A stretch of 64,000 bases of DNA from Onthophagus taurus (taxonomy: Eukaryota > Arthropoda > Insecta > Coleoptera > Scarabaeidae). Below, piece after piece: positions 44,748 to 63,835 of this stretch. Position 1 is the stretch's first letter; each line of letters opens with the position of its first letter. Under the pieces are notes generated by a model. It was not told the origin of the DNA. It did no database searches and worked only from the letters and a program-made list of their open reading frames with translations. The stretch spans positions 14,138,501-14,202,500 of the forward strand of contig NC_091975.1 of the NCBI RefSeq assembly GCF_036711975.1, given 5' to 3'. The position numbers and the translations under genes are program-made.

Positions 44748-47700
44748 CCGGTAAATCTGGCGACCATATATGTGATATTCAGATGGTAAATATTATTTTG
44801 GAGTATGTTGGAGATAAAAAACGAAATGTGCCCAAAACGTGATATAATGACGATATACGCCGTTTTGAGCCATGTTTCAACTTTCTATCACTTTTGGTTC
44901 CGGTAATTCTGTCGACCATATATGTGATATTCAGATGCCAAATGTTAGATTGGAGCGTGTTGGAGATAAAAAACAAAATGTGCCCAAAACGTGATATAAT
45001 GACGATATACGCCGTTTTGAGCCATGTTTGAACTTTCTATCACTTTTGGTTCCGGTAATTCTGTCGACAATATATTTGATATTCAGGTGGCAAATGTCAC
45101 ATTGGAGCATGTTGGAGATAAAAAACAAAATGTGCACAAAACGTGATATTATGAAGTTATACGCCGTTTTGAGCCATGTTTGAACTTTGTATCACTTTTG
45201 GTTCCGGTAATTCTGGCGATCATATATGTGATATTCAGATGGTAAATATTATTTTAGAGCATGTTGGAGATAAAAAACAAAATGTGCCCAAAACGTGATA
45301 TTGTGACGTATACGCCGTTTTGAGCCATGTTTGAACTTTCTATCACTTTTGGTTCCGGTAATTCTGTCGACCATATATGTGATATTCAGGTGGCAAATGT
45401 CACATTGGAGCATGTTGGAGTTAAGAAACAAAATGTGCCCAAAGCATGATATTATGACGTTATACGCCGTTTTGAGTCATGTTTGAACTTTCTATCACTT
45501 TTGGTTCCGGTAATTCTGGCTGCCATATGTGGGATATTCAGATGGTAAATATTATTTTGGAGCATGTTGGAGATAAAAAACAAAATGTGCCCAAAATGTG
45601 ATATTATGAAGTTATACGCCGTTTTGAGCCATGTTTGAACTTTCTATCACTTTTGGTTCCGGTAATTGTGGCGACCATATATGTGATATTCAGATGGTAA
45701 ATATTAGTTTAGAGCATGTTGGAGATAAAAAACAAAATGTGCCCAAGACGTGATATAATGACGATATACGCCGTTTTGAACCATGTTGGAACTTTCTATC
45801 ACTTTTGGTTCAGGTAATTCTGTCGACCATATATGGATATTCAGGTGGCAAATGTCACATAGGAGCATGTTGGAGTTAAAAAACAAAATGTGCTCAAAGC
45901 GTGATATTATGACGTTATACGCCGTTTTGAAAAATGTTGGAACTTTCTATCACTTTTGGTTCCGATAATTCTGCTGACCATATTTGTGATATTCAGGCGC
46001 CAAATGGCATGTTGGAGCATGTTGGAGATAAAAAACAAAATGTGCCCAAAACGTGATATTATGAAGTTATACGCCGTTTTGAACCATGTTGGAACTTTCT
46101 ATCACTTTTGGTTCAGGTAATTCTGTCGACCATATATGGATATTCAGGTGGCAAATGTCACATAGGAGCATGTTGGAGTTAAAAAACAAAATGTGCTCAA
46201 AGCGTGATATTATGACGTTATACGCCGTTTTGAACCATGTTGGAACTTTCTATCACTTTTGGTTCCGATAATTCTGCTGACCATATTTGTGATATTCAGG
46301 CGCCAAATGGCATGTTGGAGCATGTTGGAGATAAAAAACAAAATGTGCCCAAAACGTGATATTATGAAGTTATACGCCGTTTTGAGCCATGTTTGAACTT
46401 TCTATCACTTTTGGTTCCGGTAATTCTGTCGACCATATAGGTGATTATCAGATGCCAAATGTTGTATTGGAGCATGTTGGTGATAAAAAACAAAATGTGC
46501 CCAAAACGTGATATTATAACGTTATACGACGTTTTGAGCCATGTTTGAACTTTCTATCACTTTTGGTTCCGGTAATTCTGGCGACCATATATGTGATATT
46601 CAGATGGTAAATATTATTTTGAAGTATGTTGGAGATAAAAAACAAAATGTGCATTAAATGTGATATTATGACGTTATACGCCGTTTTGAGCCATGTTTGA
46701 ACTTTCTATCACTTTTGGTTCCGGTAATTCTGTCGACCATATATGTGATATTCAGGTGGCAAATGTCACATTGGAGCATGTTGGTGTTAAAAAACAAAAT
46801 GTGCCCAAAATGTGATATTATGACGTTATACGCCGTTTTGGGCCATGTTTGAACTTTCTATCACTTTTGGTTCCGGAAATTCTGTCGACCATATATGTGA
46901 TATTCAGATGGTAAATATTATTTTGGGGTATGTTGGAGATAAAAAACAAAATGTGCCCAAAACGTGATATTATAACGTTATACGACGTTTTGAGCCATGT
47001 TTGAACTTTCTATCACTTTTGGTTCCGGTAATTCTGGCGACCATATATGTGATATTCAGATGGTAAATATTATTTTGAAGTATGTTGGAGATAAAAAACA
47101 AAATGTGCATTAAATGTGATATTATGACGTTATACGCCGTTTTGAACCATGTTTGAACTTTCTATCACATTTGGTTCCGGTAAATCTGGCGACCATATAT
47201 GTGATATTCAGATGGTAAATATTATTTTGGAGTATGTTGGAGATAAAAAACGAAATGTGCCCAAAACGTGATATAATGACGATATACGCCGTTTTGAGCC
47301 ATGTTTCAACTTTCTATCACTTTTGGTTCCGGTAATTCTGTCGACCATATATGTGATATTCAGATGCCAAATGTTAGATTGGAGCATGTTGGAGATAAAA
47401 AACAAAATGTGCCCAAAACGTGATATAATGACGATATACGCCGTTTTGAGCCATGTTTGAACTTTCTATCACTTTTGGTTCCGGTAATTCTGTCGACAAT
47501 ATATTTGATATTCAGGTGGCAAATGTCACATTGGAGCATGTTGGAGATAAAAAACAAAATGTGCACAAAACGTGATATTATGAAGTTATACGCCGTTTTG
47601 AGCCATGTTTAAACTTTGTATCACTTTTGGTTCCGGTAATTCTGGCGATCATATATGTGATATTCAGATGGTAAATATTATTTTAGGGCATGTTGGAGAT

Positions 47701-50700
47701 AAAAAACAAAATGTGCCCAAAACGTGATATTGTGACGTTATACGCCGTTTTGAGCCATGCTTGAACTTTCTATCATTTTTGGTTCCGGTAATTCTGGCGA
47801 CCATATATTGGATATTCAGATGGTAAATATTATTTTGGAGCATGTTGGAGATAAAAAACAAAATGTGCCCAAAATGTGATATTTTGAAGTTATACGCCGT
47901 TTTGAGCCATGTTTGAACTTTCTATCACTTTTGGTTCCGGTAATTCTGGCGACCATATATGTGATATTCAGATGGTAAATATTATTTTAGAGCATGTTGG
48001 AGATAAAAAACAAAATGTGCCCAAAACGTGATATTGTGACGTTATACGCCGTTTTGAGCCATGTTTGAACTTTCTATCACTTTTGGTTCCGGTAATTCTG
48101 TCGACCATATATGTGATATTCAGGTGGCAAATGTCACATTGGAGCATGTTGGAGTTAAAAAACAAAATGTGCCCAAAACGTGATATTATGACGTTATACG
48201 CCGTTTTGAGCCATGTTTGAACTTTCTATCACTTTTGGTTCCGGTAATTCTGTCGACCATATATGTGATATTCAGGTGGCAAATGTCACATTGGAGCATG
48301 TTGGAGTTAAAAAACAAAATGTGCCCAAAACGTGATATTATGACGTTATACGCCGTTTTGAGCAATGTTTGAACTTTCTATCACTTTTGGTTCTGGTAAT
48401 TCTGTCGACCATATATGTGATATTCAGGTGGCAAATGTCACATTGGAGCATGTTGGAGTTAAAAAACAAAATGTGCCCAAAACGTGATATTATGACGTTA
48501 TACGCCGTTTTGAGCCATGTTTGAACTTTCTATCATTTTTGGTTCCGGTAATTCTGGCGACCATATATGTGATATTCAGATGGTAAATATTATTTTGGAG
48601 CATGTTGGAGATAAAAAACAAAATGTGCCCAAAATGTAATATTATGACGTTTTACGCCGTTTTGAGCCATGTTTGAACTTTCTATAACTTTTGGTTCCAG
48701 TAATTCTGTCGACCATATATGTGATATTCAGGTGGCAAATGTCACATTGGAGCATGTTGGAGTTAAAAAACAAAATGTGCCCAAAACGTGATATTATGAC
48801 GTTATACGCCGTTTTGAGCCATGTTTGAACTTTCTATCATTTTTGGTTCCGGTAATTCTGGCGACCATATATGTGATATTCAGATGGTAAATATTATTTT
48901 GGAGTATGTTGGAGATAAAAAACAAAATGTGCCCAAAAGTGATGTTATGACGTTATACGCCGTTTTGAGCCATGTTTGAACTTTCTATCACTTTTGGTTC
49001 CGGTAATTCTGGCGACCATATAGGTGATTATCAGATGCCAAATGTTGTATTGGAGCATGTTGGAGATAAAAAACAAAATGTGCCCAAAACGTGATATTAT
49101 GACGTTATACGCCGTTTTGAGCCATATTTGAACTTTCTATCACTTTTGGTTCCGGTAATTCTGTCGACAATATATGTGATATTCAGATGCCAAATGTTAT
49201 ATTGGAGCATGTTGGAGATAAAAAACAAGATGTGCCCAAAACGTTATATTATGACGTTATATGCCGTTTTGAGCCATGTTTGAACTTTCTATCACTTTTG
49301 GTTCCGGTAATTCTGGCGACCATATATGTGATATTCAGATGGTAAATATTATTTTGGAGTATGTTGGAGATAAAAAACAAAATGTGCCCAAAAGTGATAT
49401 TATGACGTTATACGCCGTTTTGAGCCATGTTTGAACTTTCTATCACTTTTGATTCCGGTAATTCTGTCGACAATATATGTGATATTCAGATGCCAAATGT
49501 TATATTGGAGCATGTTGGAGATAAAAAACAAGATGTGCCCAAAACGTTATATTATGACCTTATATGCCGTTTTGAGCCATGTTTGAACTTTCTATCACTT
49601 TTGGTTCCGGTAATTCTGGCGACCATATATGTGATATTCAGATGGTAAATATTATTTTGGAGTATGTTGGAGATAAAAAACAAAATGTGCCCAAAAGTGA
49701 TATTATGACGTTATACGCCGTTTTGAGCCATGTTTGAACTTTCTATCACTTTTGATTCCGGTAATTCTGTCGACCATATATTTGATATTCAGATGCCAAA
49801 TGTCACATTGGAGCATGTTGGAGATAAAAAACAAAATGTGCCCAAAACGTGATATTATGACGTTATATGCCGTTTTGAGCCATGTTTGAACTTTCTATAA
49901 CTTTTGGTTCCGGTAATTCTGTCGACCATATAGGTGATATTCAGATGCCAAATGTTATATTGGAACATGTTGGAGATAAAAAACAAAATGTGCCCAAAAC
50001 GTGATATTATGACGTTATATGCCGTTTTGAGCCATGTTTGAACTTTCTATCACTTTTGGTTCCGGTAATTCTGGCGACCATATATGTGATATTCAGATGG
50101 TAAATATTATTTTGGAGTATGTTGGAGATAAAAAACAAAATGTGCCCAAAAGTGATATTATGACGTTATACGCCGTTTTGAGCCATGTTTGAACTTTCTA
50201 TCACTTTTGATTCCGGTAATTCTGTCGACCATATATTTGATATTCAGATGCCAAATGTCACATTGGAGCATGTTGGAGATAAAAAACAAAATGTGCCCAA
50301 AACGTGATATTATGACGTTATATGCCGTTTTGAGCCATGTTTGAACTTTCTATAACTTTTAGTTCCGGTAATTCTGTCGACCATATAGGTGATATTCAGA
50401 TGCCAAATGTTATATTGGAGCATGTTGGTGATAAAAAACAAAATGTGCCCAAAACGTGATATTATGACGTTATACGCCGTTTTGAGCCATGTTTGAACTT
50501 TCTATCACTTTTGGTTCCGGTAATTCCGTCGACGATACAGGTGATATTCAGATGCCAAATGTCACATTGGAGCATGTTGGAGATAAAAAACAAAATGTGC
50601 CCAAAACGTGATATTATGACGTTATACGCCGTTTTGGGCCATGTTTGAACTTTCTATCACTTTTGGATCCGGAAATTCTGTCGACCATATATGTGATATT

Positions 50701-50850
50701 CAGTTGGTAAATATTATTTTGGGGTATGTTGGAGATAAAAAACAAAATGTGCCCAAAACGTGATATTATGACGTTATACACCGTTTTGAGCCATGTTTGA
50801 ACTTTCTATCACATTTGGTTCCGGTAAATCTGGCGACCATATATGTGATA
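44748..50850. repeat. 152-bp satellite array, segment 3
   Basis: About 40 monomers continuing segment 2 across element B; begins with the duplicated ccggta (44748-44753). Variant blocks recur about 2429 bp apart (16 monomers; for example 44779 and 47208, 44931 and 47360) and a 303-bp dimer is repeated at 45783/46086. Ends at gtgata (50845-50850) against the next AGTAGT tip. Confidence 0.95.
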
Positions 50851-51300
50851 AGTAGTATAGAAACGCCGATTCTAGACCGGAAATTGCACCTCCGCACCTC
50901 CGTGACGTCATCAATCCAATGTAAAAGGATAGGGAAGGGTACCAACCTAAGGCGGAGGTGAAAAAAAAAATAGGTTGGTATTGGAAAAGTAACTAGATCT
51001 GGTGAATTTTTTAAAAAGTAACGCGCCACCTAGTGGCTGGTAGTGGAACTAAACCATTACCAACCAGGTAGACGGTTACCTTTTTTAAAAAAGTAACGCG
51101 CCACCTAGTGGTTGGTAGTGGAACTAAACCACTACCAACCAGGTAGACTGTTACTTTTTTAAAAATCACCAGGTCTGGTTACCAACCTATTTTTTCCCCC
51201 AAGCCTTTGGTTGACACCCCTCCCTATCCTTTTACATCGGGCGGATGACGTCACGGAGGTGCGGAGGTGCGACAACTTCCTGTCTAGAATCGGCGTTTCT
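50851..51300. mobile_element. Foldback remnant with Maverick TIR tip
   Basis: Starts agtagtatagaaacgcc. The first about 225 bp are nearly repeated in inverse up to 51300 (ends gaatcggcgtttct): both arms hold the cctccgcacctccg-tgacgtca block (CRE at 50903-50910 and 51246-51253), the aggttggta words and cgccacctagtgg. It therefore looks like two joined TIRs of a Maverick whose interior is gone. The right tip lacks the final atactact and no right-hand target duplication is seen. Confidence 0.7.
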
Positions 51301-52500: not shown

Positions 52501-53545
52501 AGTAGTGTAAGAATGCCGGTTCTAGACCGGAAGTTGCTCCTGCTGCTCCTGCGGTGACGTCACGCCTCAATGTATTAGGTATAGGGGGGGATACCAACTA
52601 AAGTTTGGGGGAAAAAAAATTAGGTTGGTATTAAAAGTAACTAGAGATCTAGGGATTTTCATAAAATTAAACAGAAAAATTTAAATATAATGACGCTAGC
52701 TATGATTGAGAATTGAATTGTAAATTAGCGTAACTTGAGCTGAAAAATTAAATGGTGGTGGTGGTGGGAATATAGGATTAAAAATAAAAAAAAATCATTA
52801 CATTTCAAATTAACAATAAATTACATTAGCATAATATATAAAAAAACCAATATATAATATAATCTGTGATTAACTTGAAATGACTACATTTAAGAAATAG
52901 ATGCCGATGGAATTTCATCATTTGAACCAATATTCTTCTTCTTCTTCTTTATAAATTCAATCTTTTGCACAGTACATGTCTTGTTAAGTTCAAGTTCTCC
53001 AAGATATACCAAACACATTTCACGTAGTTCAACAATTTCAGCATCGGAAATCACTTCAGCAATACGTTTAGGTAGAAACACAATAAATCCAGCTTCCAGT
53101 TCAACAATTACCATAGGCCAAGCTCGGCTTGGAATACGTTTAGCTGCTACAATTGGATACGGTGTATGTAAATGTAAATCACTCACTTTTTTCTTAGGTA
53201 AAAATTCACACTGTCCTAAACGATTTAGATGTTCCATCTTTTCAATAAGCGGTGTATAAACTTCAAGTGAACAGCTTGGAGTGTAAGTTCGGAATGAATA
53301 AATTTCGCACCAGGCGGTATAATGTAACCGCAAAAAAAAATAATGTGGTTAGACGCAATAACATCTCTCTAGATAAACAAATTTCAAATAACAACTGTTG
53401 ATAAAATTAAAAAAAATAAAATTATCAAAAGGAAAATTCGAGAAACAATAGAAATTACTCACAGTATAAAAAATAAATCGATCCTAAGTGTTCCCAACAC
53501 ATCGCAATGGTTGGTAAACCATGTTCTCCACAATCTCAATATGAT
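52501..53545. repeat. Left TIR of element C
   Basis: Tip with ETS-type accggaagt near 52528, CRE tgacgtca (52555-52562), and the words taccaactaaagtttgg and taactagagatct. The inner 165 bp match 63836-64000 in inverse with about one mismatch. The TIR contains the gene 52890-53237, which should exist again on the right outside the window. Confidence 0.8.
52890..53237 (-). CDS. FLPKR-family small protein (C, in TIR)
   Basis: 115 residues from ATG 53237 (MEHLNRLGQCEFLPKKK), family pattern RIPSRAWPMVIVELEAGFIVFLPKRIAEVI then a Lys6 run and polar tail. Closest to 25144-25449. Upstream, 53390-53466 reads on the minus strand as an intron (gtgagt...caacag), suggesting a non-coding first exon starting near 53500. 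An OB-like or DNA-binding role is inferred only. Confidence 0.7.
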   Translation of the reverse strand: MEHLNRLGQCEFLPKKKVSDLHLHTPYPIVAAKRIPSRAWPMVIVELEAGFIVFLPKRIAEVISDAEIVELREMCLVYLGELELNKTCTVQKIEFIKKKKKNIGSNDEIPSASIS

Positions 53546-53627
53546 TTTGATGGGCTACATCGAATTTATAACTCATCTTTTTATAATTTGATGTTTATGT
53601 TCTGGTTTAGATTGAACTAATTCTATA

Positions 53628-53861
53628 ATGTCTTTTTCACCACATTTTATATTAATTTTCTATCTGTCCTATTTCCCGATGTTGTCATCCGAAGAAATTT
53701 ATCTGTTTTTTTGTAGTAATTTGTTTTTCGTGGTATTTCGTTTGTTCGTCACTGTATTTTTTGCAGATGTATTTCTCAGTTGTGATAATTGCGGTTTTTG
53801 TGGTTTTACTTTATTATGCACGTGTTATTTTTTTATTTTATTATCTATTTACTTAGAATAA
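53628..53861 (+). CDS. Possible small hydrophobic protein (C)
   Basis: 77 residues with two or three hydrophobic stretches (FILIFYLSYF, LFFVVFRLFVTVFF, FFILLSIYL) and four Cys. It has an ATG and a stop, but AT-rich DNA easily gives such frames and no homologue is present in A or B. Confidence 0.25.
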   Translation: MSFSPHFILIFYLSYFPMLSSEEIYLFFCSNLFFVVFRLFVTVFFADVFLSCDNCGFCGFTLLCTCYFFILLSIYLE

Positions 53862-53917
53862 CATTTTAATCAGTTGTGTCCCACAGATTGATTTCATCGG
53901 TTCTATATCGGTTAAAA

Positions 53918-54268
53918 ATGGAAAATTTTAATCAAATTGGTGCTTCATTGAATAGTAAACTTGATTTACTTAACAATATATATGCAAGATCCAGTAAAAC
54001 CTTGGTTAGAGTCTCTCGTTTGGAGTGTAATAGAGTATATCGTATAATAGGAATTGAGAGATATGTTAATTCGAGTAGTACATATCCCAAAGTTTTAATT
54101 GAATTGGAGGATTTTAAAGTCTATATACCTAAATGTTATGAAGATGAGATATTAAAGGATGATACGTTTACAATTTTAACATTTTCAATCAATTCTATCG
54201 GATTGATCTTTAAAGGTTCTACCTATCTAATGGATATTTTAAATTTTGTAAATTTAAATGAAGTTTAA
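53918..54268 (+). CDS. Diverged FLPKR-family protein (C)
   Basis: 116 residues from ATG 53918 (MENFNQIGASL). Shows the family layout in altered form: VSRLECNRVYRIIGIERY, YPKVLIELEDFKVYIPK, LIFKGSTYLMDILNF. Divergent to 52890-53237, with about 680 bp between the start codons. The sequence after its stop (gtgagtatttctattg...caacag) repeats the intron of that neighbour, so the two genes arose by an inverted duplication. Confidence 0.6.
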   Translation: MENFNQIGASLNSKLDLLNNIYARSSKTLVRVSRLECNRVYRIIGIERYVNSSSTYPKVLIELEDFKVYIPKCYEDEILKDDTFTILTFSINSIGLIFKGSTYLMDILNFVNLNEV

Positions 54269-54478
54269 TTTTTTTATAATGTGAGTATTTCTATTGTTTC
54301 TCGAACATTCCTTTCAATGATCTTTATTTTTTATCTTTTTATCTTTTACCAACAGTTGCTATGGAAAGTTTGTTAACCACAAGCGGATATGCGCGTGAAA
54401 AAACAACTATATTTTAAATAAAAAACAATGTATTAAATGAAAAAATTTATTTAAACCAATAAAATGTATATTTAATCA

Positions 54479-54990
54479 TTACAATACATTTTCTTTAGAA
54501 ATCCAACTGTTCTGAGACGAATCAAAACCTAACCATTTCACGTACAATCTATCCCCTTTCCTCCTTCTTATCACTTTTTCAACGAGATAAACGTCAGGTT
54601 GTTTAGATAAACTGAGCTCAAATTCATAAAATGCTCCTGAAATGGGTTGACCATTCATGTCCTCCAACAAATATGTTACAGGGTTTGTTATCTGAACTTT
54701 AGCAATTTTAAACAATTCAGTAGTCCAATTTGGTAGGTATCCTTTATCGAAAACATGTTTATGTCTACTGATTCGTACCGTATCACCAACTTTAGACTTT
54801 CATTTACCAGTAATTTTTACGAAATTGTAGACTGTATTGAGAAGCTGATTTTCAATAGATTTAGAATTTATTAAATTAGGAGCTAGGAGCTAGCTTTGTA
54901 GTCCTATGCTTTAAAGCGTTATAAATTTTAGCTACGTCATTCAAAAGATGTAACCATTTATGATTCCCGTAAAGACTAAAGTATTTATAG
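54479..54990 (-). pseudogene. Second, broken integrase C-terminal half (C)
   Basis: Frame 54479-54715 encodes the linker and chromodomain (ITNPVTYLLEDMNGQPISG, DVYLVEKVIRRRKGDR, WLGFDSSQNSW). Upstream to about 54990, frameshifted pieces (YGNHKWLHLLND, VGDTVRISRHKHVFDKGYLPNW) extend it toward the catalytic core, which is absent. It is closer to the element B integrase than to C's own, so C is a mosaic. It shows Gln where B has a stop codon. Confidence 0.85.
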
Positions 54991-54994
54991 AGCC

Positions 54995-55420
54995 TTCTGT
55001 TTTATCTGACCAACCGCTTTTATCGGCACCTATACTTTTTCGAACTGAAAAGCGGTTGGATGGGTAAAACAGATTGGTACAGATAAATTTTAACAGGCCG
55101 GTTTTAACCGATCTGTTTTATCTGACCAACCGCTTTTATCGGTTGTAACACCGATAGTTTTTCAAACTGAAAAGCGGTTGGATGGGTAAAACAGATTGGT
55201 TTCTGATCAAATTATACCGTTGACGGATGGAATTCTTATAATTACTGGGGGACGTTAAGGATTGTCACAGGTTGTTATATAAACTGTTTTAGCAGATAAA
55301 TTTTAACAGGCCGGTTTTAACCGATCTGTTTTATCTGACCAACCGCTTTTATCGGTTGTAACACCGATACTTTTTCAAACTGAAAAGCGGTTGGATGAGT
55401 AAAACAGATCGGTTAAATGC
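54995..55420. repeat. Hairpin repeats
   Basis: Two full copies (about 55110-55200 and 55313-55415) and one partial copy (about 54990-55075) of a palindrome of about 100 bp: ccgatctgttttatctgacc, aaccgctttt then its complement aaaagcggttgg and taaaacagatcgg. Related words tile 58500-58672. Confidence 0.85.
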
Positions 55421-55456
55421 AAATAATATATATGACGTGTTTAAACTGGAATAAAT

Positions 55457-55651
55457 ATGAAATCGGTTCGATTTAAGGAGGAGATTGAGATTTATGAAGT
55501 AAAGTGTGATGATGTACATAAAAGAGCAAGAAGCGGGCGGGAATGGTTAGAGGCGGCAATTGATAGACAACGATTTCAAAGACGTATTAAAGAAATTGAA
55601 CGAATTCTTGACAAAATATTGCGTGAAAAATTGTTAAAAATGAATGAATAA
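55457..55651 (+). CDS. PPP1R15/GADD34-like PP1-eIF2alpha targeting protein (C)
   Basis: 64 residues. K2-S-V-R-F6 is a PP1-docking RVxF motif; residues 30-44 (WLEAAIDRQRFQRRI) match, with identical spacing, the W-x3-A-x-D-R-x-R-F-x-R-R-I core by which PPP1R15 proteins hold eIF2alpha. Known members are GADD34, CReP, insect PPP1R15 and short viral versions in African swine fever virus and herpes simplex virus; they direct PP1 to dephosphorylate eIF2alpha and keep translation going during stress or antiviral shut-off. Here the protein is reduced to that core plus a helical tail. Own ATG; no homologue in A or B. Confidence 0.8.
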   Translation: MKSVRFKEEIEIYEVKCDDVHKRARSGREWLEAAIDRQRFQRRIKEIERILDKILREKLLKMNE

Positions 55652-55982
55652 ATTAAACATAATAAAATACATTGTATTAATTATTTTAGTTTTAATATAT
55701 AGTTGTATAAAACGTGCATATAAGTTAAATGTTATGTATGGTTGAATAAAATTCTATCCCCACCACCACCACCACTACTACCACAACAACCAGTCTCATA
55801 ACCCCACGGAACATACTTACTTATTTACTGAGAACGCTTATCGCAAAATACTTGGGAAACGTTGATGCACAAAAGAAATGTTTAAACAAAATATATGATT
55901 TGAAGGAGATAAGTATACTACTAAAATAAGGGTCAGATAACATATTACAAAAATTGTTTTATTTAAAAAAATCTACATACTA
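55652..55982. other. Intergenic, no gene
   Basis: AT-rich with poly-A signals (aataaaataca) and a (CCA)n microsatellite at about 55760-55785. No gene seen. Confidence 0.5.
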
Positions 55983-56906
55983 CTACACAATATCTGATTT
56001 CTTAATCCAACTTCTTTCATCTATTCCAAACCACTTGACGTACATTCTGTTTCCTTTCCGTTTTAGAATCTTTTCAATCAACTGTATGTCAGGATAATGA
56101 GTCCGTTGTAATTCTTCAGTGTAGAAAGCTCCTTTAATGTTATCACCTTTCAAATCTTGTAATAAATACGTCACTGGATTACTATATTGAATCTTAACAA
56201 TTTTAAAAACTTCATTGCTCCAGTTAGGAGTATACCCTTTGGTGAACACACCACGATGTTTCGATATTCTTACAAAGTCATTCAAATGAAATTTTATGGG
56301 TAATGTTTGATTTTGATAATGTATTTTCCTATTATAAACAGTACGCAATAGCTTTTCCTCATCCGCCTCTATTGGTTTCATGCCTGTAGTGGAATGCTTG
56401 CGGGTATTATATGTTAATAAAATTTGCGGTAATAAATTTAACCACTTAAAAGATCCCTGCACACTAAATTCTTTCCACATTAAACCTTTTAAAGTTCTAT
56501 TTAAACGTTCAACGATAGATGCTTTTAATGAGCTAAACGTAGAGTAATGATTAATTTTTAATTTACTCATAAGTGAGATAAAATCTTTATTATAAAACTC
56601 TTTTCCTTGATCGGTTTGAAGGTTTTTTGGTACGTTTGCATCCTTTAAAATACTTTTCATTGCTTTAGTAATATCTTTACCCGATTTAGTTTTTACCGGA
56701 CCAGCCCATGCATATTTGCTAAAGACATCAATTACAACGAGTATATAACGATAACCACTATTTTGTCGTGCATAAGGTATCATCTCTACTAAATCAGCCT
56801 GGTATAAATCATTTATCCCTTTAGTAAGTACATGTCTCCTTTTAAAATGTATTCGAGCAGGTTTATGAAGTTCTTCAGCTAATTTTCTTTTAATATCAGA
56901 GGACAT
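55983..56906 (-). CDS. Maverick integrase with chromodomain (C)
   Basis: 307 residues, intact. Catalytic D38 (YQADLVEM), D99 (LQTDQGKEF), E133 (IVERLNRT); an HSTTGMKP motif after the core; SH3-like GYTPNWSNEVF; C-terminal chromodomain DIQLIEKILKRKGNRMYVKW...SW. More like the truncated integrase of A than that of B. Its start overlaps the next gene by 28 bp. Inserts element DNA; the chromodomain may steer it to methylated-histone chromatin. Confidence 0.93.
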   Translation of the reverse strand: MSSDIKRKLAEELHKPARIHFKRRHVLTKGINDLYQADLVEMIPYARQNSGYRYILVVIDVFSKYAWAGPVKTKSGKDITKAMKSILKDANVPKNLQTDQGKEFYNKDFISLMSKLKINHYSTFSSLKASIVERLNRTLKGLMWKEFSVQGSFKWLNLLPQILLTYNTRKHSTTGMKPIEADEEKLLRTVYNRKIHYQNQTLPIKFHLNDFVRISKHRGVFTKGYTPNWSNEVFKIVKIQYSNPVTYLLQDLKGDNIKGAFYTEELQRTHYPDIQLIEKILKRKGNRMYVKWFGIDERSWIKKSDIV

Positions 56907-57244
56907 GTTACTACGATTTCAACAAACAGTGTATTAATCGTCGCAGTAGGAGATGGAATAAATCTTAATCTATCACCTTTCTTCAATTTGATACCCTTCC
57001 CATTTGAGCTATCATAAATCCTATTGTTTACTATAAAAGTGGTGTCCGATGGCTCAATAGTGATAGAGTAAATTTCTCCTGATTCAATAGGAAAAATATA
57101 ATATTTTTTTAAATTACTCAGCGCATAACTATGTCCAGCTTTCCCACCAGTCAAAGAAATATTCAAATAAGAATAATGGTTATGTTCTACTGAGGAGGCG
57201 GAGGAGGAGGAAGAAATATGATGTCCGAACTTGTGGATAGTCAT
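56879..57244 (-). CDS. Beta-rich protein in the fibre slot (C)
   Basis: 121 residues: MTIHKFGHHISSSSS, then a strand-rich body (HNHYSYLNISLTGG, YYIFPIESGEIYSITIEP, TINTLFVEIVV). It occupies the position of the fibre-like gene of B and shares only KFG plus a Ser-rich linker with it. That is the pattern expected when receptor-binding heads are exchanged on a conserved N-terminal anchor. Function inferred. Confidence 0.55.
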   Translation of the reverse strand: MTIHKFGHHISSSSSASSVEHNHYSYLNISLTGGKAGHSYALSNLKKYYIFPIESGEIYSITIEPSDTTFIVNNRIYDSSNGKGIKLKKGDRLRFIPSPTATINTLFVEIVVTCPLILKEN

Positions 57245-57271
57245 AACTAAAATGATGAATGTATTGTAGGT

Positions 57272-58438
57272 TTATACAATTATATGAGCTTCTCGTAACT
57301 CTTCTGTAATACTATTAATTTCATTACCATGTGACGTATTACCGGCAAGCTGAGAGGCTATTAAAAGTTTTAATCTATTTACTAATTCATTAGGATCATC
57401 CCAATAAATAAAATTTGACCGTTGATTATTGTACTGCTGCTGCTGCATGAGACCTTCACCAGTTCTCATACGAACAGGAACGCTTTTTACTCTGCTACGT
57501 CGTACAACTCCTTCCGTCGCATTTAAAACAGGTGCAATTATTTGACGATACTTGTCCGACTTGTCACCCATAATTTGTTTGCTTTTATCTTGGTTTTTGT
57601 TTAATGCTGCTGTTGTTTTTAGTATTTCAACGTAATTCTTTTGATCGTCACTAGTATATTGTTCTGGTTCCCTCTTGAAAATTAGCTCATACAGACCTTT
57701 CGTACCCTTATAAGTTTTATTTGCAATGGTTATATCATTCGTTTTACTACTAAAGGATATTTCACTATCTCCAATGTAATATTTATCAGTTAAAATATTA
57801 ACACGAACTCCCTTGTTGCTAGAATCGAATTCATTGTTATCATCTCTTACATAACCCTCAATGTAGGATCTTGTTAGAGGAGCAAATTGTTCCAAGTATA
57901 AGAAAAATGATTCTTCAGGAATATTCATAGTTTCTGGTAATGGAGATTCATCTGCTGCTGTCGCTGCTGCTGCTGCTGCAGGTGGTGATGTTTGCGTTGG
58001 TTGTGGTGGTGGTGATGGAGATGTTGCAAAAACATCGTCATCGTCATCGCTTAATATTGATATTGTTGGTGATTGAGGCGCTTGTTGTTGTTGTTGTTGT
58101 TGTTGATGAAGTTCTGGTAGACGTGATGCTTGTACTGCTTTTGATACTCTTCTTTTCTTTGTAGGTATTACTGTTTTAAATTCTTCTTCTTTAACTTCCT
58201 CCGATTTAAGCTTTTCCTCCTCCTCTTCCTCCTCCTCTTCCTCCTCCTCCTCTCCCTTCTTAACTTTAATAGGATGTTTAATTGTGGAAATTATTTTTTC
58301 TAAAGGGGTTGTTACTGCTTTATATTGCTGTTGAAGCAAATGTTCAGATTTATGTTTCCTTGCTTTTAATTTATCCAATTTCTTTTTCACATTTTCTCTT
58401 GTTTTAATAAGCTTTCGTGTTAATTGTTTTGAATCCAT
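57272..58438 (-). CDS. Conserved Maverick protein, unknown function (C)
   Basis: 388 residues from ATG 58438 (MDSKQLTRKLIKTRE), longer than in A and B because of low-complexity inserts: Glu-rich, Gln9, Asp5, Pro/Ala-rich. Conserved core YKGTKGLYELIFKREPEQY, SDKYRQIIAP, and tail YWDDPNELVNRLKLLIAS...EINSITEELREAHI. A poly-Gln stretch also occurs near the C-terminus. No motif of known activity. Confidence 0.8.
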   Translation of the reverse strand: MDSKQLTRKLIKTRENVKKKLDKLKARKHKSEHLLQQQYKAVTTPLEKIISTIKHPIKVKKGEEEEEEEEEEEEEKLKSEEVKEEEFKTVIPTKKRRVSKAVQASRLPELHQQQQQQQQAPQSPTISILSDDDDDVFATSPSPPPQPTQTSPPAAAAAATAADESPLPETMNIPEESFFLYLEQFAPLTRSYIEGYVRDDNNEFDSSNKGVRVNILTDKYYIGDSEISFSSKTNDITIANKTYKGTKGLYELIFKREPEQYTSDDQKNYVEILKTTAALNKNQDKSKQIMGDKSDKYRQIIAPVLNATEGVVRRSRVKSVPVRMRTGEGLMQQQQYNNQRSNFIYWDDPNELVNRLKLLIASQLAGNTSHGNEINSITEELREAHIIV

Positions 58439-58499
58439 GTTTTCTGTACAATGAATGAACACTTACTGACTAATGCATGTGCTTACTGTAGAGTTTTAT

Positions 58500-58672
58500 T
58501 AGAACTGTTCAAGTCGGCTTTAACTGATCTGTTTTATCCGACCGGTTTTAACCGATCCGTTTTATTCGACCGGTTTTAACCGATCCGTTTTATCTGACCG
58601 GTTTTAACCGATCCGTTTTATCCGACCGGTTTTAACCGACCGGTTTTAACCAATCCGTTTTATCCGACCAAC
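58500..58672. repeat. 28-bp tandem repeat
   Basis: About six copies of ccggttttaaccgatccgttttatccga with small changes. Same words as the hairpins at 54995-55420. It abuts the cut end of the phospholipase gene and supplies its stop codon. Confidence 0.9.
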
Positions 58673-58965
58673 TTTTGTTTTACTTTCATCGCGTTAGTAA
58701 CAAACCATGCGTTAGCTTTTTCACCAATCGAAGAATCTTTCGCTAATACTCTTTTCCATGCTTCTGCAGCTAATACTTTATCTGCTATATGTCGATTGTG
58801 TAAATCTGTGTATTGTGTATAGGCTAAATCATGACGTTTACATGCTCTATCAAGGTCATTAATGCCAGGATCTCCACGTGCTAAGCGTTTCATGAGATTT
58901 GTCCCAGGTCCACAGAACTGATAGCCGGGTAAATGCAGCTCTCCACCTGTTCGTATCACTAACAT
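58660..58965 (-). CDS. Phospholipase A2 domain as separate, inverted gene (C)
   Basis: 101 residues from ATG 58965 (MLVIRTGGELHLPGYQF). Calcium loop QFCGPGT, catalytic RHDLAY, and the downstream helix AWFVTNAMKVKQKL as in B, where the frame then continues into the core protein; here it ends in the 28-bp repeat. It lies just downstream of the ATPase stop and on the same (minus) strand, whereas in A and B it lies on the other side of the ATPase, on the plus strand. The active-site residues are intact. Confidence 0.85.
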   Translation of the reverse strand: MLVIRTGGELHLPGYQFCGPGTNLMKRLARGDPGINDLDRACKRHDLAYTQYTDLHNRHIADKVLAAEAWKRVLAKDSSIGEKANAWFVTNAMKVKQKLVG

Positions 58966-59003
58966 GACTGATATAGAAACATACACAATCACAGTTTTAT
59001 ATA

Positions 59004-59687
59004 CTAATGAAACCCATTACGATATCTACCATTGTTCATATCGTCCTCCTTACTGATTACAAAAAATCCGAATCTATCTCTCCAACACATTGAACACATT
59101 TTCTTAAAGACGTTGAATTTCATATCGGGTATTACATGATCGTTATAAATATGTCTTAAATTTAGATCATCTTGTTTGAAAAGTATTAAAAAGTTTGCAT
59201 TATCACGTATTAAATGCTTTGGAATATGCGTGTAACTCTGACATAAATAAAAACTGTCTATTGCCTTATGTCGTCCCATACAAAAATAATCACGAATAAT
59301 TGATTGTTTATCGCATGCTACATCATCAAATATAAAAACCGAATCTTCATTCGCTTTGGAAGGATGCATTATGTCATCACTACTGCTATACTCATAATAT
59401 CCTAAACCTTTTATAGGCTGTAGTAATTTTCTCAAATATTCATATTTGCTTTGATGCAATGACTTTGAATACACATACACATTTTTAAAGGATAGTCCAT
59501 TAGGATCCTGTAATAAGCTAATTATCAGATTTGTTTTACCAGAGTTAGAAGGTCCGGATATTATGCAACGTAGATTATTTGGAAATAAATAACTATGCTT
59601 TTTGTTTTGAGGTGATTGATTATTATTATTAAATTGTATTGTTACATCATCAACATTTAATGTGTAAGGTTGTTTTATCACTTTCAT
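59004..59687 (-). CDS. FtsK/HerA-type packaging ATPase (C)
   Basis: 227 residues from ATG 59687 (MKVIKQPYTLNV), which aligns with the starts in A and B. Walker A GPSNSGKT, Walker B VFIFDDVACD. It ends NGRYRNGFH, about five residues short of the others, at the junction with the relocated phospholipase gene. Confidence 0.92.
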   Translation of the reverse strand: MKVIKQPYTLNVDDVTIQFNNNNQSPQNKKHSYLFPNNLRCIISGPSNSGKTNLIISLLQDPNGLSFKNVYVYSKSLHQSKYEYLRKLLQPIKGLGYYEYSSSDDIMHPSKANEDSVFIFDDVACDKQSIIRDYFCMGRHKAIDSFYLCQSYTHIPKHLIRDNANFLILFKQDDLNLRHIYNDHVIPDMKFNVFKKMCSMCWRDRFGFFVISKEDDMNNGRYRNGFH

Positions 59688-59890
59688 GTTTATTGTATAA
59701 CTAACTCTTATATCAGTTTGATTTTGAATATATAATGTTCTAATTTGTCTGTTGACCATTGAAGTGATTATCAATATCATCAATATTTAATGTGTAAGAT
59801 TGTTTTATCACTTTCATGTTTATGGTATAACTGACTCCTATATAAGTCTGAATCTGAACATATAATATTCATTTGTCTGTTGACCATTGA
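59645..59890. repeat. 115-bp tandem duplication at the ATPase start
   Basis: 59645-59765 (start of the ATPase gene plus its promoter side) is repeated at 59770-59890 with about 90 per cent identity (gtgtaag.ttgttttatcac, cattgaagtgatt). The second copy is a dead piece of ATPase coding start and lies where the phospholipase start is expected. Confidence 0.85.
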
Positions 59891-59899
59891 AGTGATTGA

Positions 59900-60343
59900 A
59901 TGATCATGAAGAAAAGAGTCAGTGGAAAAGCCATTTCTTTTAATAGAGCCGTTAAAAATGCTAAAATAAAATTAAAAGAGTCAAGCACTAATGATTTGAA
60001 ATCTGCTGCAAAGTTAGCTTTACGTGCCGTAAAAGGTATTGTCAAAAAGAAACCTCGTTCTAGAATTATTACAATTCCGAAAAGCGGTGGTATCCTTCCG
60101 CTCATTCCAATTTTTGCTGGTTTAAGTGCATTAGGAGCTTTAGCAGGTGGCACTGCTTCCGTTATAAGTGCTGTCAATAAAGCGAAGCAAGCACAAACGG
60201 CCCTCAAGGAAAGTCAAAGACATAATCAAACGATGGAATCAATAGCTTTAGGTAAAGGTCTATATTTAAAACCATATAAAAAAGGATTAGGTGTTTTTTT
60301 AAAGACACGCCAAGAAAAACCATACAACAGCAGAAAGCGCTAA
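59900..60343 (+). CDS. pVI/core-like protein without phospholipase (C)
   Basis: 147 residues, equal to the C-terminal half of the B fusion: basic N-terminus, AAKLALRAVKGI, hydrophobic ILPLIPIFAGLSALGALAGG, then coiled KAKQAQTALKESQRHNQTMESIA and YLKPYKKGLGVFL. The hydrophobic segment suggests membrane interaction; adenovirus pVI is the closest idea. Its N-terminus falls exactly where the fusion was cut. Confidence 0.7.
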   Translation: MIMKKRVSGKAISFNRAVKNAKIKLKESSTNDLKSAAKLALRAVKGIVKKKPRSRIITIPKSGGILPLIPIFAGLSALGALAGGTASVISAVNKAKQAQTALKESQRHNQTMESIALGKGLYLKPYKKGLGVFLKTRQEKPYNSRKR

Positions 60344-60357
60344 CAAACGTTGACTTG

Positions 60358-60690
60358 ATGCGTTATGTAAAAATATTGGGAATACCAGAGTTTAGAGGGA
60401 TATTCATGCGAGATAAATTGCCTATACGTATTAGTAATAATGAAAGAGGTATTATTAACTTGGATAGTGTGAAAGGGCCTGGCACTCATTGGACAGCCTA
60501 TATTAAGAAGGGAAATATAATTACTTATTTTGATAGTTTTGGTAATTTAAAACCAAGTAAAGAAATTGTGAACTATTTCAAGAGTGCTGGAAATAATGTA
60601 ATTATTAAATATAATCACCATCAATATCAAACCTATAACACAAGTAATTGTGGTTATTTATGTTTAAATTTCTTACTATCGGACGCATAA
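60358..60690 (+). CDS. Adenain-like cysteine protease (C)
   Basis: 110 residues from ATG 60358 (MRYVKILGIPEFRG). Catalytic His in GTHWTAYIKKG, Asp in YFDSFGNLKPS, Cys in TSNCGYLCLNFLL. The conserved leader ALTNVDL lies upstream of this ATG in the same frame, overlapping the end of the preceding gene by a -1 shift. Confidence 0.87.
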   Translation: MRYVKILGIPEFRGIFMRDKLPIRISNNERGIINLDSVKGPGTHWTAYIKKGNIITYFDSFGNLKPSKEIVNYFKSAGNNVIIKYNHHQYQTYNTSNCGYLCLNFLLSDA

Positions 60691-60709
60691 TAGCTTCAAC
60701 AATCAAAGG

Positions 60710-61417
60710 ATGTGGACGTTTGATTTAGTAGGAAAAACATCTGTTCTAACAGCAAATTACCACCCTGCAATAGAACTGAATCCTAATTATCAATATGAAC
60801 TGGCACTTGTAAGCTTTGATGGTTACAACTCAATTCCAAATATTGATGAAACAAACAATTGCTTAAAAATAGATCATGTATTGATAACACTACCAACAGG
60901 ATCTTATGAATTAATACACATTTCGAATGCTATTAATAAACAACTTAAAGAAAAGAATATTAATGGTGTGACCTTTAGCCTACAAGCAAATGAGGATACG
61001 CTACAAGCAGTGATCACATGTAACAAAACTATTGATTTTAATATAAACAACTCCATCTCAACAATATTAGGATTTAATAAATCAGATGTACTGGATCCAA
61101 TAAGATCCCCGCATAGAGCTCGCAATATTGTAGATATATTTAAAGTAAATTCTATACAAGTACTATGTAGCATAACACATGGAGCTTATCACAACGACAT
61201 ACCTGCGCACACTATCTACTCATTTTTCCCTACAGTACCTAAAGGTTATAAAATATCAGAAACTCCCCACAATTTAATATATATGCCTTTGAATACACAA
61301 ATAATTAATAATATTACCCTTAAAATAGTTGATCAAAACGGAGTGTTGGTTAATTTCAGAGGAGAAGTCATCAAGATAAGACTACATTTAAAGCTCTCTA
61401 GTAATAATGGTTCTTAA
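60710..61417 (+). CDS. Penton-like minor capsid protein (C)
   Basis: 235 residues: SFDGYNSIPNIDE, LPTGSYELIHI, INNSISTILGF, NSIQVLCSIT, HTIYSFFPTVPKGY, VNFRGEVIKIRLHLK. Intact and co-linear with A and B. Confidence 0.82.
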   Translation: MWTFDLVGKTSVLTANYHPAIELNPNYQYELALVSFDGYNSIPNIDETNNCLKIDHVLITLPTGSYELIHISNAINKQLKEKNINGVTFSLQANEDTLQAVITCNKTIDFNINNSISTILGFNKSDVLDPIRSPHRARNIVDIFKVNSIQVLCSITHGAYHNDIPAHTIYSFFPTVPKGYKISETPHNLIYMPLNTQIINNITLKIVDQNGVLVNFRGEVIKIRLHLKLSSNNGS

Positions 61418-61541
61418 GGTGAAAGGTTATATAAACCCACGAAATCAAACCAATACTTTTAGTTCTCCTCACACTGTGAAACAGTTAACACCTCAAAACA
61501 AACAATTTCTTGAATCATTAGGTTTACAATTAATAAAATAA
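61407..61541 (+). CDS. Small conserved peptide before the capsid gene (C)
   Basis: 44 residues, basic, tail LTPQNKQFLESLGLQL, matching the N-x-x-F-L-x-x-L-G motif of A and B. Overlaps the penton stop; the capsid ATG follows after 8 bp. Confidence 0.72.
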   Translation: MVLKVKGYINPRNQTNTFSSPHTVKQLTPQNKQFLESLGLQLIK

Positions 61542-61549
61542 TATTCAAT

Positions 61550-62752
61550 ATGAGTATCTTAAACGTCTCGGATAAAGTAGAATTTGATAATTCACTCGTA
61601 CGGATTCAGTATCATAATCATTTACCATACTCATCAAATTCGTTTAACAATAGCGATGAAATTCGTATTGCAATTCAACAACAGGACGTTTACACGTTAC
61701 CAAGTCAATCTTTTATTTACGTACAAGGGAAACTATTGAAAGATGACGGAACCGTTGATAAAGATTCAAAATTATCAGTAAATCCGATCGCTCATATGTT
61801 TAGTGAAGTACGATTTGAATGTGGAGGGAACGTAATTGACAGAGTAAGAAATCCAGGAATAGCTAGCACATTAAAAAATCTTTGCTCATTAACAAGATCG
61901 GAATACTATCATGCCTCTAACGCAGGTTTCGAATATCCAAATGTTAAAGTAAATGAAAATACAGGACATTTTGATTTTTGTGTTCCCTTGAAATATTTTC
62001 TTGGTTTCGCAGAAGATTATAATAAAATTTTGATAAATCTCCGTCAAGAATTAGTTTTAGTACGCAGTAATTCAGACAAGAATGTTATCGAAAGTCTTTT
62101 ACCTAATGTGATAATTACTATTAATAAAATAGTATGGAAAGTCCCTCATGTTTCTGTAGCCGATGTTGAACGTTTAAAACTTTTAGAGTACATTGAACAA
62201 GGAATTGAATTAGACATGGGATTTAGATCATTTGATTTACATGAATACCCATCATTACCAAAAAGTAGACAACACACATGGACAATTAAAACATCTACTC
62301 AATTAGAAAAACCCAGATACTTTATATTAGGGTTTCAAATCAATAGAAAAGATAATCCGTTACGTTCTGCATCACAATTTGACCACTGTAATTTAACAGA
62401 TATGAAAGTGTTTTTAAATAGTGAGAAATATCCCTATGAAGCTTTAAATTTAAATTTTAAGACAGGTCAAATTGCAGTTTTATATGAAATGTATTGTAAT
62501 TTCGCAAAAACCTATTACGATCGAGAACTTGCAGAACCAATGTTTAACAGAGATACATTTTTAGCACATACACCGATTATTGTAGTTGATTGTTCACGGC
62601 AAAATGATATTTTAAATGTTGGAACCGTTGATATTCGCATTGAATTTGAAACGAGTGAAGAGATACCTAATGCTACTTCGCTCTACTGTTTAATCTTACA
62701 TGATAGAGTTTTCAAATATGTTCCTTTAACTGGTATGATTAATCAAATATAG
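61550..62752 (+). CDS. Hexon-like major capsid protein (C)
   Basis: 400 residues, intact, closest to the A copy (HNHLPYSSNSFNNSDEIRI, QQDVYTLPSQSFIYVQG, SVADVERLKLLEYI, QLEKPRYFILGFQINRKD, YCLILHDRVFKYVPL). Double jelly-roll capsid family. Confidence 0.9.
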   Translation: MSILNVSDKVEFDNSLVRIQYHNHLPYSSNSFNNSDEIRIAIQQQDVYTLPSQSFIYVQGKLLKDDGTVDKDSKLSVNPIAHMFSEVRFECGGNVIDRVRNPGIASTLKNLCSLTRSEYYHASNAGFEYPNVKVNENTGHFDFCVPLKYFLGFAEDYNKILINLRQELVLVRSNSDKNVIESLLPNVIITINKIVWKVPHVSVADVERLKLLEYIEQGIELDMGFRSFDLHEYPSLPKSRQHTWTIKTSTQLEKPRYFILGFQINRKDNPLRSASQFDHCNLTDMKVFLNSEKYPYEALNLNFKTGQIAVLYEMYCNFAKTYYDRELAEPMFNRDTFLAHTPIIVVDCSRQNDILNVGTVDIRIEFETSEEIPNATSLYCLILHDRVFKYVPLTGMINQI

Positions 62753-63203
62753 ATCAGTTTGTAAACAACTCTATGTCAATAACATTATGTTTTAATAAAG
62801 TAGATGAACTGGATTTTTATGTAAACAAAATAAAGTTAGTCGTATTTAAGTTGGCTGAAATTTTATTAGAAATATTCCTAATTTCCTGCGCATGCGCATT
62901 CAAGCGACGCCGACGGGAGGCACGCCTTTAAACGCTCAGCAAATTTAAATTTTAAAAATGTAACAATCCGTCAGGTAAATATATTTTATTCATTAAATAT
63001 ATTATTTTTTTTTTTATTAAATGTATTATTCTTATTCATCGTCTGCGAGCGAGTTTCCTCTTATCTAATCTTCGCACATATCCTACCGCATATTTCCTGC
63101 GATTCGTTAACGCGTCAACAACCGCCGCACTCGAAAGACCCGATTCAGTTCGTTTTTAACCGCTGCTGATTCCTCTAGTTCGTAAATCACGATATAAAAG
63201 AAA
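62753..63203. promoter_or_regulatory. Non-coding region with NRF1-type palindrome
   Basis: No gene. tgcgcatgcgca (62887-62898) is a perfect NRF1/EWG-type palindrome in a short CpG-rich patch like those in the TIRs. A TATA-like gatataaaag (63191-63200) lies just before the next ATG, probably too close to be its core promoter. Confidence 0.45.
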
Positions 63204-63383
63204 ATGTTTAGTACAATTTCAAGTACAACGGTCTTCCTCTTCTTTCTTTTTATTACGACAACATTGTGCGATAGCGGAGAAGAAGAAGAAGGAGAAACAA
63301 CCGTAGCAGTTACTGCATCACCTTCAGCTGAAACCTTAGAGATTACTACTACTACATACTACATTAGCATCATCTCCAGCTGA
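63204..63383 (+). CDS. Short secreted acidic peptide or broken membrane protein (C)
   Basis: 59 residues: signal peptide with core VFLFFFLFI and likely cleavage near TLC, then a Glu run and Thr/Ser-rich tail. After a frame change the next frame (63424-63630, 68 residues) is Lys/Gly/Thr-rich with a hydrophobic stretch (SVSLICLNILGLMV) followed by KKNLKK, like a membrane anchor. Together they look like one Thr-rich type I membrane protein broken by frameshift, or two exons; unproven. Confidence 0.45.
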   Translation: MFSTISSTTVFLFFLFITTTLCDSGEEEEGETTVAVTASPSAETLEITTTTYYISIISS

Positions 63384-63423
63384 TATTCGAAAAATAAATA
63401 ATTTTCATTATCAACTACTCCGG

Positions 63424-63630
63424 TTGAAGACAGATCCTAAAGTAAGTTTTAAAGTTAAAAATCCTAAGAAAGGAGGAGGAACCTCCGCAAAACAAGATCA
63501 ACCTACAACAACCACAGCGATGAAAGATGCATCTTCGATCATCAGAGGTTCAGTGTCTTTAATATGTTTAAATATATTAGGGTTGATGGTAAAAAAAAAT
63601 TTGAAGAAAAGAAATTGTGTTTTAAAATAA
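63424..63630 (+). CDS. Thr/Lys-rich frame with membrane-anchor-like end (C)
   Basis: Downstream partner of 63204-63383. Basic, Thr-rich, hydrophobic helix near residues 45-58 and a basic stop-transfer tail. No homologue in A or B. Confidence 0.4.
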   Translation: MKTDPKVSFKVKNPKKGGGTSAKQDQPTTTTAMKDASSIIRGSVSLICLNILGLMVKKNLKKRNCVLK

Positions 63631-63753
63631 ATATAATATTAATTTTTATTTATTAATTTTGTGTTTTATTTATCCACCACACACCAGAGTGCGCATAACT
63701 CAGTCCTACTTACACCACTCAAATCTAGGTGGCGCCATTGTATTTAAATTTTT

Positions 63754-63835
63754 CTATTTAATTTTCTAAAAATCCCTAGATCTCTAGTTACTTTTAATAC
63801 CAACCTAATTTTTTTCCCCCAAACTTTAGTTGGTA
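63754..63835. repeat. Inverted copy of outer TIR piece
   Basis: Inverse of 52592-52673 (aaatccctagatctctagt, accaacctaattttttt). It ends abruptly at 63835, where the inverse of the inner TIR (53545 downward) starts. Confidence 0.85.

Follow-up and report, generated by a model that had tools for sequence, protein, structure and literature searches.

A minimal PPP1R15-type core protein as probable accessory cargo of Maverick-like elements in the genome of Onthophagus taurus

PPP1R15 proteins contain a core of ~70 residues, described as both required for the trimeric phosphatase and sufficient for it (PMC10998612). In human PPP1R15B (R15B) this natively unstructured core includes V641/F643 of the RVxF site, Y650/I652 of the phi-phi site and R658 of the Arg site, together with W662, F672 and I676 (PMC4394352). 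In human PPP1R15A (R15A), actin is contacted by F592, R595 and R612, and eIF2alpha by R591, R594, R587 and D588, with Trp582 setting the pose (PMC8500838), while a substrate-capturing helix, H1, is conserved also in the viral proteins DP71L and ICP34.5 (PMC7615683). Viral PPP1R15 proteins are already known, i.e., ICP34.5 of herpes simplex virus 1 (HSV-1), DP71L and the insect-virus protein coGV-gp036 (PMC4394352). As the initial annotation of the present locus had supposed, no report of a PPP1R15 protein in Polintons/Mavericks was found in a literature search that reached neither most subscription papers nor any preprints.

The gene described here (55457-55651, forward strand) is located in a 64,000-nucleotide stretch of Onthophagus taurus DNA, hereafter referred to as the window, and translates into 64 residues followed by a stop codon. 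Its product, P0001, was characterized by translation, Pfam, PDB and profile searches. The initial annotation had described an RVxF-type PP1 docking site at residues 2-6 and a W-x3-A-x-D-R-x-R-F-x-R-R-I core further downstream; both are present exactly as described, the former as K2-S-V-R-F6 (55460-55474, +), which aligns with R15B KKVTF, and the latter as W30-I44 with the spacing given (55544-55588, +). Between them lie a predicted phi-phi site formed by Y13 and V15 (55493-55501, +), corresponding to R15B Y650 and I652, and a candidate Arg site, R25, with the Trp W30 (55529-55546, +), corresponding to R658 and W662; these roles are assigned by alignment to the residues described in PMC4394352. 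The R25-to-W30 spacing is five in P0001 and four in R15B, and thus one residue longer in the former. W582, R591, F592, R594 and R595 of human R15A are equivalent to W30, R39, F40, R42 and R43 in P0001, and by homology the W30-I44 segment is predicted to contact eIF2alpha through R39 and R42 and actin through F40 and R43. PDB alignment and spacing together indicate that P0001 carries V4, F6, Y13, V15, R25, W30, D36, R39, F40, R42, R43 and I44. The equivalent of the eIF2alpha contact R587 is I35, so that this contact residue is absent, and the equivalent of the actin contact R612 is L60 at the same spacing, the Arg at +20 from the Phe being absent. Furthermore, P0001 has no room for H1 ahead of the RVxF site, because the protein starts at that site. 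The Ala of the motif (A34) is atypical, since every stop-free group I copy (see below) but that of the window has Val at this position (33 of 34).

An AF2 model of P0001 (mean pLDDT 70.5, pTM 0.42), based on eight sequences, exhibits a helix at residues 27-63, with block means of 81-89 over residues 31-60. The low-confidence N-terminus is in keeping with the natively unstructured core reported in PMC4394352. The model fits a protein that would wrap PP1 and form an actin-bound helix, although a lone helix by itself proves nothing.

The same gene, which the initial annotation proposed to look for in other Mavericks, is present in related elements of the same genome in six sequence groups (I-VI), P0001 being a member of group I. 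When searched alone against the PDB, P0001 returned DP71L of African swine fever virus as its best match (9nb9, E 2.4e-7), with weak matches to PPP1R15B (E 0.094 and 0.1) and PPP1R15A (E 0.8). A profile of P0001 and its genomic relatives returned DP71L at 4.6e-12, PPP1R15B at 2.6e-9 and PPP1R15A at 4.1e-7 (best chain each), and the six-group profile gave 1.1e-10, 1.3e-10 and 8e-10, respectively (best chains). A match to a PPP1R15 profile had been set beforehand as a test, and with the group profile it was found to be significant against solved PPP1R15A, PPP1R15B and DP71L. At the level of sequence, the assignment of P0001 as a PPP1R15 (GADD34) core is supported by these results. Against Pfam PF10488 (PP1c_bdg; curated cut-off 26.1 bits), P0001 scored 17.7 bits (E 0.0031), another group I copy 15.3, group II 24.3-24.4, group IV 23.3, group V 18.0 and group VI 21.3, all under the cut-off, and the two scanned copies of a group III fusion scored 28.1 and 26.9, over it. 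P0001 had no match in NCBIfam or PHROGs. No relatives were returned from IMG/VR, whether the query was P0001, either of two DNA patterns, the group profile, the capsid protein or the ATPase; this collection is no fair test, because one of the scanned DNA patterns fits the letters of DP71L and nevertheless gave 0 matches.

Chance controls were performed on both motif and profile. The strict W30-I44 motif has a single occurrence across the six frames of the window, where composition predicts 5e-8. A looser C-half motif, the wording of which is reportedly that of Rojas 2015, has an expectation of 9e-6 in the window and matched 0 of 1,000,000 shuffles of the 64-mer. Among the 624 frames of the window, P0001 took the top rank with a profile built from groups II and III only (E 1.4e-16, the runner-up having 0.61), with a score of ~56 bits versus at most 14.1 in 10,000 shuffles. 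A near-reversed P0001 control, which was longer than intended by one residue, returned 0 PDB matches at E<=10.

The window comprises three Maverick-type elements, A, B and C, and the P0001 gene resides in the third of these. Unit C (52501-64000, plus 880 bases beyond the window in locus L064) is 12.4 kb long and is bounded by terminal inverted repeats (TIRs) of 1,046 bp, of which 1,045 are identical (880/880 bases in the L064 part and 165/166 in the rest). The left TIR, which begins AGTAGTGTAAG, occupies 52501-53546, and the inner part of the right TIR 63835-64000, its remainder being L064:1-880. A perfect 6-bp target duplication, TGCGTG, is found on both sides, 6 bp being the norm for Mavericks. 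Because the TIRs are nearly identical, unit C is likely to have moved recently with its gene intact. The description of the gene as carried by a Maverick is borne out by the TIRs and target duplication. PolB was not found in unit C: with the element B PolB as query, no match was obtained anywhere from 52501 to L064:880. The large PolB at 39983-43924 belongs to element B (24013-44747, with TIRs). Assignment of the P0001 gene to this PolB-bearing element was considered and dropped, as element B ends at 44747.

Unit C is composite, in that it contains a remnant of a second, B-type integrase (54440-55004, -) and recurring palindromic repeats. The remnant has a chromodomain match in Pfam (54479-54658), which the intact integrase lacks. 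Palindromic repeats in three copies lie upstream of the P0001 gene (54996-55417), with a repeat unit common to 58515-58668; they were once taken for element ends, a reading dropped when the true ends (TIRs and duplication) were located. These intergenic 28-bp repeats (CGGTTTTAACCGATCYGTTTTATCYGAC) account for 7 window matches where 0 are expected, and are somewhat like viral homologous regions. The intact genes of unit C include an integrase with an rve domain (55983-56906, -; PF00665, 1.2e-13), a PLA2-like protein (58660-58965, -; PF08398, 1.6e-14), a Pox_A32 packaging ATPase (59004-59780, -; PF04665, 9e-9) and a double jelly-roll major capsid protein (61550-62752, +; PF21738, 8.7e-108), to which a weak match to a Ulp1-like protease may be added (60358-60690, +; PF02902, 0.0094). 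PF00665, PF04665 and PF21738 are over their cut-offs and PF02902 is under. Unit C also encodes a homologue, presumably penton-like, of the proteins preceding the capsid gene in A and B.

Several further features of the window were recorded. A 115-aa ORF lies within the TIR of unit C (52890-53237, -), with its second copy at L064:144-491; relatives of this ORF, of which unit C has two, occur at 25162-25449 near the end of element B and at L064:1089-1394 beyond unit C. A 152-bp satellite array occupies 15584-24013 and 44747-50850 (~56 and ~40 copies), element B being inserted into it, and at the satellite edge a foldback (50851-51300) opens with Maverick-terminus sequence and is 74% identical over 467 columns to its own reverse complement. 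Element B carries at 36017-37651 an ORF for a 544-aa matrixin-type metalloproteinase (PF00413, 3.6e-37), a virus-like accessory gene which we take to be reminiscent of baculovirus MMPs.

To describe the relatives of P0001, the genome (290.8 Mb, 33 contigs) was searched by tblastn with P0001 at E<=0.1, which gave 63 rows, partial rows included, to which five Pfam rows were added. Sixty-one distinct loci were read, i.e., 41 of group I, 15 of group II and 5 of group III; two duplicates and three short C15 fragments were left out. Over all six groups, the PPP1R15 core occupies four positions in elements: beside the integrase or inside both TIRs, beside PolB, fused before an exonuclease-like protein, and beside the PLA2/minor-capsid gene. 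Stop-free, full-length group I copies are 88-100% identical to P0001. Thirty-four of the 40 ungapped group I copies are stop-free, L034 being excluded merely for ending two residues early, and one more copy, L050, carries an indel as well as stops and has lost W30 and R39. V4, F6, Y13, V15, R25, W30, R39, F40, R42, R43 and I44 are each present in 34/34 stop-free group I copies. Group II is 52% identical to P0001, with 12 of 15 copies stop-free; W30, R39, F40, R43 and I44 are present in 12/12 of these, one copy each has I4, E36 and K42, and R25 is fixed in the stop-free copies of both groups. Loss of the W/RF/RRI positions in related elements, which the initial annotation had regarded as speaking against its proposal, was found in none of these stop-free copies (34/34 in group I, 12/12 in group II).

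Group I genes were examined for their neighbours at 30 loci, 19 of which have the same integrase within a 3.2-kb stretch, nine an exonuclease-like ORF instead (two of these nine loci overlap) and two neither. Nine inverted pairs of group I gene copies, 8.59-8.64 kb apart, were identified. In the C22 pair, the one compared, the gene is located at the inner end of both TIRs, with 98.4% identity over 1,403 bp upstream and 65 identical bp downstream of the gene. Integrase, ATPase, PLA2 and capsid genes and an exonuclease-like ORF lie between the two copies, and no PolB match was obtained in the C22 unit. Of note, loci L012, L013, L036 and L037 (C22:731534-740343) belong to ~8.6-kb Maverick derivatives between gene copies, which occur as the nine inverted pairs; it is possible that these derivatives are satellites which need a helper element.

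PolB is found near the gene in 12 of the 15 group II loci. Thirteen of the 15 have a common outer edge beginning AGTAGTATAAG, 336-342 bp upstream of the gene (838 in one); their flanks number 12 distinct sequences, because two loci share one. In group III the core starts a 222-aa frame, the remainder of which matches the ORF at 35401-35889 at 26-27%. At L001 the capsid gene is followed by one ORF and then by the fusion; L002-L004 have the same two matches and L005 is rearranged. The element B relative of this partner was modelled (pLDDT 79.6), and the model resembles 3'-5' exonucleases, with DexA first (E 1.0e-3, TM 0.52), a result that is no more than suggestive. Two products are possible from the fusion, since an internal Met precedes the partner.

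Groups IV-VI were identified in a genome search with PF10488 at E<=10, whose 88 rows were sorted by frame length, score and reading into 12 of group II, 8 of group III or III-like, 63 of group IV, 4 of group V and 1 of group VI. Two of the 8 group III or III-like rows, L072 and L089, are without an intact core. Six group IV loci were read (L066, L080-L083 and L088), all of which carry the core sequence, with D36 changed to H in L083; the other 57 were sorted by score and frame only. A PLA2/minor-capsid gene adjoins the gene in 10 of the 11 loci of groups IV-VI examined, the exception being L087. W30, D36, R39, F40, R43 and I44 are conserved in 8/8 representatives of the six groups, in an alignment in which the L086 row was truncated by two residues and shows M for its V. 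Other positions differ: R42 is K in group III and N or T in groups IV-VI, the Arg preceding the Trp lies four residues before it in groups IV-VI and is absent in group III, the Arg at +20 from the Phe is present in representatives of groups III-VI and missing in I and II, and group IV has I in place of F6. Either one old acquisition followed by moves of the gene or several captures may underlie the six groups: that their positions differ speaks for more than one event or for moves, whereas groups IV-VI, which have their position in common, would rather reflect descent within that lineage. ORFs without Pfam match flank group II and V genes, at L038:1233-1961 (-, 242 aa) and L084:341-1144 (+, 267 aa), respectively. 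A search for a host PPP1R15 gene with PF10488 (E<=10, 88 rows) and the human R15B core (19 rows) recognized none, every row being assigned to the element groups by frame length, score or sequence; a host gene with an intron inside the core or with strong divergence would be hidden from it.

Coding constraint is evident between groups. Comparison of groups I and II gave dN 0.41-0.42 and dS 2.1-2.8, near or past saturation, and hence a dN/dS of ~0.15-0.2 that is to be read with this in mind; for groups I and III, dN was 0.71 and dS was beyond estimate. The 34 stop-free group I copies comprise 19 distinct sequences, among which 13 variants are synonymous and 23 are nonsynonymous, giving a ratio of 0.45. 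The window copy differs from a pair copy by 5 synonymous and 3 nonsynonymous changes (Fisher p 0.0096), and from L026 by 0 synonymous and 3 nonsynonymous changes. Constraint between groups that is weaker among copies is as expected if many copies decay after insertion.

Considered together, these data make it probable that the product of the P0001 gene is a minimal regulatory subunit of the PPP1R15 type, which Maverick-like elements carry as accessory cargo and which would reverse the eIF2 block. The low score of P0001 alone, under the Pfam cut-off, and the absence of the R587 and R612 contacts count against this reading. So do the weak matches of P0001 alone to PPP1R15B and PPP1R15A chains, the departures from the core in groups III-VI (no Arg ahead of the Trp in III, N or T for R42 in IV-VI, I for F6 in IV), the saturation of dS between groups, the 0.45 ratio within group I, the 0 synonymous and 3 nonsynonymous changes between the window copy and L026, and the start of P0001 at the RVxF site in view of H1. 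The missing R587 and R612 contacts also bear on an alternative, namely that a PP1 recruiter derived from PPP1R15 has been retargeted from eIF2alpha to another substrate, e.g., a protein of the element or a regulator of immunity. Groups I and II lack R587 and R612, groups III-VI have another residue in place of R42, and fusion to an exonuclease-like protein in group III implies that location and targets may differ. However, a retargeted protein would be expected to lose its eIF2 face selectively, whereas R39 and D36, which correspond to eIF2alpha contacts, are kept along with the actin-contact residues F40 and R43 in 8/8 representatives, and we therefore consider retargeting unlikely. Somewhat less likely still is a decaying passenger, i.e., a gene once useful whose present copies are roleless relics spread with the elements. 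Stops in 6/40 ungapped group I and 3/15 group II copies, another group I copy with an indel and stops, the mild constraint within group I (0.45) and the lack of a detectable PolB in the window unit would suit such decay, but 34/40 and 12/15 copies have no stop and almost every contact site in them is fixed, the comparison of groups I and II gives a dN/dS of ~0.15-0.2 (on a near-saturated dS), and TIRs identical at 1,045 of 1,046 positions point to a recent move with an intact gene.

The two remaining explanations are far less plausible. A host PPP1R15 exon or pseudogene could by chance lie beside a Maverick, and the conserved core is indeed a separate exon in two mammalian isoforms (PMC4394352). 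Nevertheless, this origin is very improbable: the gene is located inside TIRs and a target duplication, dozens of copies exist elsewhere, including nine inverted pairs, of which the compared pair has the gene in both terminal repeats, and the frame together with its RVxF cannot have arisen as an exon by splicing, because the stretch from the last in-frame stop, at 55442, to the codons of the RVxF site has no AG acceptor. Finally, P0001 is short and charged and has a low single-sequence Pfam score, as might be expected of a charged helical peptide that resembles PPP1R15 by chance. Such a coincidence has a negligible likelihood in view of a motif expectation of at most 9e-6 in the window, 0 matches in 1,000,000 shuffles, a profile score of ~56 bits versus at most 14.1 in 10,000 shuffles, and conservation across six groups.

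If P0001 is indeed a minimal PPP1R15 regulatory subunit, residues 2-25 would wrap host PP1 via the RVxF, phi-phi and Arg sites, while the helix at ~27-63 would present one face (F40, R43) to G-actin and the other (R39, R42) to the eIF2alpha domain. The resulting PP1-actin complex with P0001 would strip the Ser51 phosphate from eIF2alpha. Expression during element activity could in this manner undo the translation block imposed by eIF2 kinases and allow capsid proteins to be made, to the benefit of the element; the group III core would be carried along with the exonuclease-like element protein.

It is a long-standing question whether Mavericks make virions and infect cells. Lifting a translation shut-off is an evident need for a virus but not for a transposon that only resides in chromosomes, and intact, constrained PPP1R15 genes in many units represent indirect, testable evidence for a phase that faces an antiviral or stress-induced eIF2 kinase. 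The findings suggest that elements carrying the core may fight host translation shut-off. A broader proposal, which we put forward tentatively and regard as possible rather than probable, is that animal Mavericks permanently engage in suppressing the eIF2 stress response, with means that have been rebuilt repeatedly: a single genome has at least six core groups at four element places, one of these being doubled inside the TIRs and one a fusion to an exonuclease-like protein. Mavericks might then act as a reservoir of PPP1R15 genes to and from hosts and DNA viruses (granuloviruses, asfarviruses), and might pass through a cryptic infectious phase that meets eIF2 kinases. In addition, these genes provide natural PPP1R15 cores of very small size (64 aa) and a fusion made by nature, and the divergence among their six groups reveals which contacts are kept.

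With respect to known systems, the protein is of a familiar kind, whereas its class of carrier looks new, as do two of its arrangements, doubled in TIRs and fused. The best PDB match, DP71L of African swine fever virus (9nb9, chain B, 71 aa), is alignable from the RVxF site to the C-terminal helix, and belongs to the same size class, consisting of the core only. It differs in that its Arg site and Trp are closer together by one residue, and its carrier is an NCLDV rather than a Maverick. DP71L is reported to act on eIF2alpha, as P0001 is predicted to do, and at the R587 position it has Val, not Arg, so that R587 is not required in every member. The insect-virus core protein coGV-gp036, likened here by description only, is likewise from a virus, a Choristoneura granulovirus, and not from a Maverick. 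It is depicted in Fig. 1B of PMC4394352. ICP34.5 of HSV-1, also likened by description only, is a viral PPP1R15 with the same core from a vertebrate virus (PMC8500838, PMC4394352). PPP1R15A/GADD34 and PPP1R15B/CReP contain the RVxF, phi-phi, Trp, actin and eIF2alpha residues in the same order as P0001; these mammalian proteins exceed 600 aa and have extensions such as eIF2gamma-binding repeats (PMC10998612), whereas P0001 represents the bare core, without R587 and R612.
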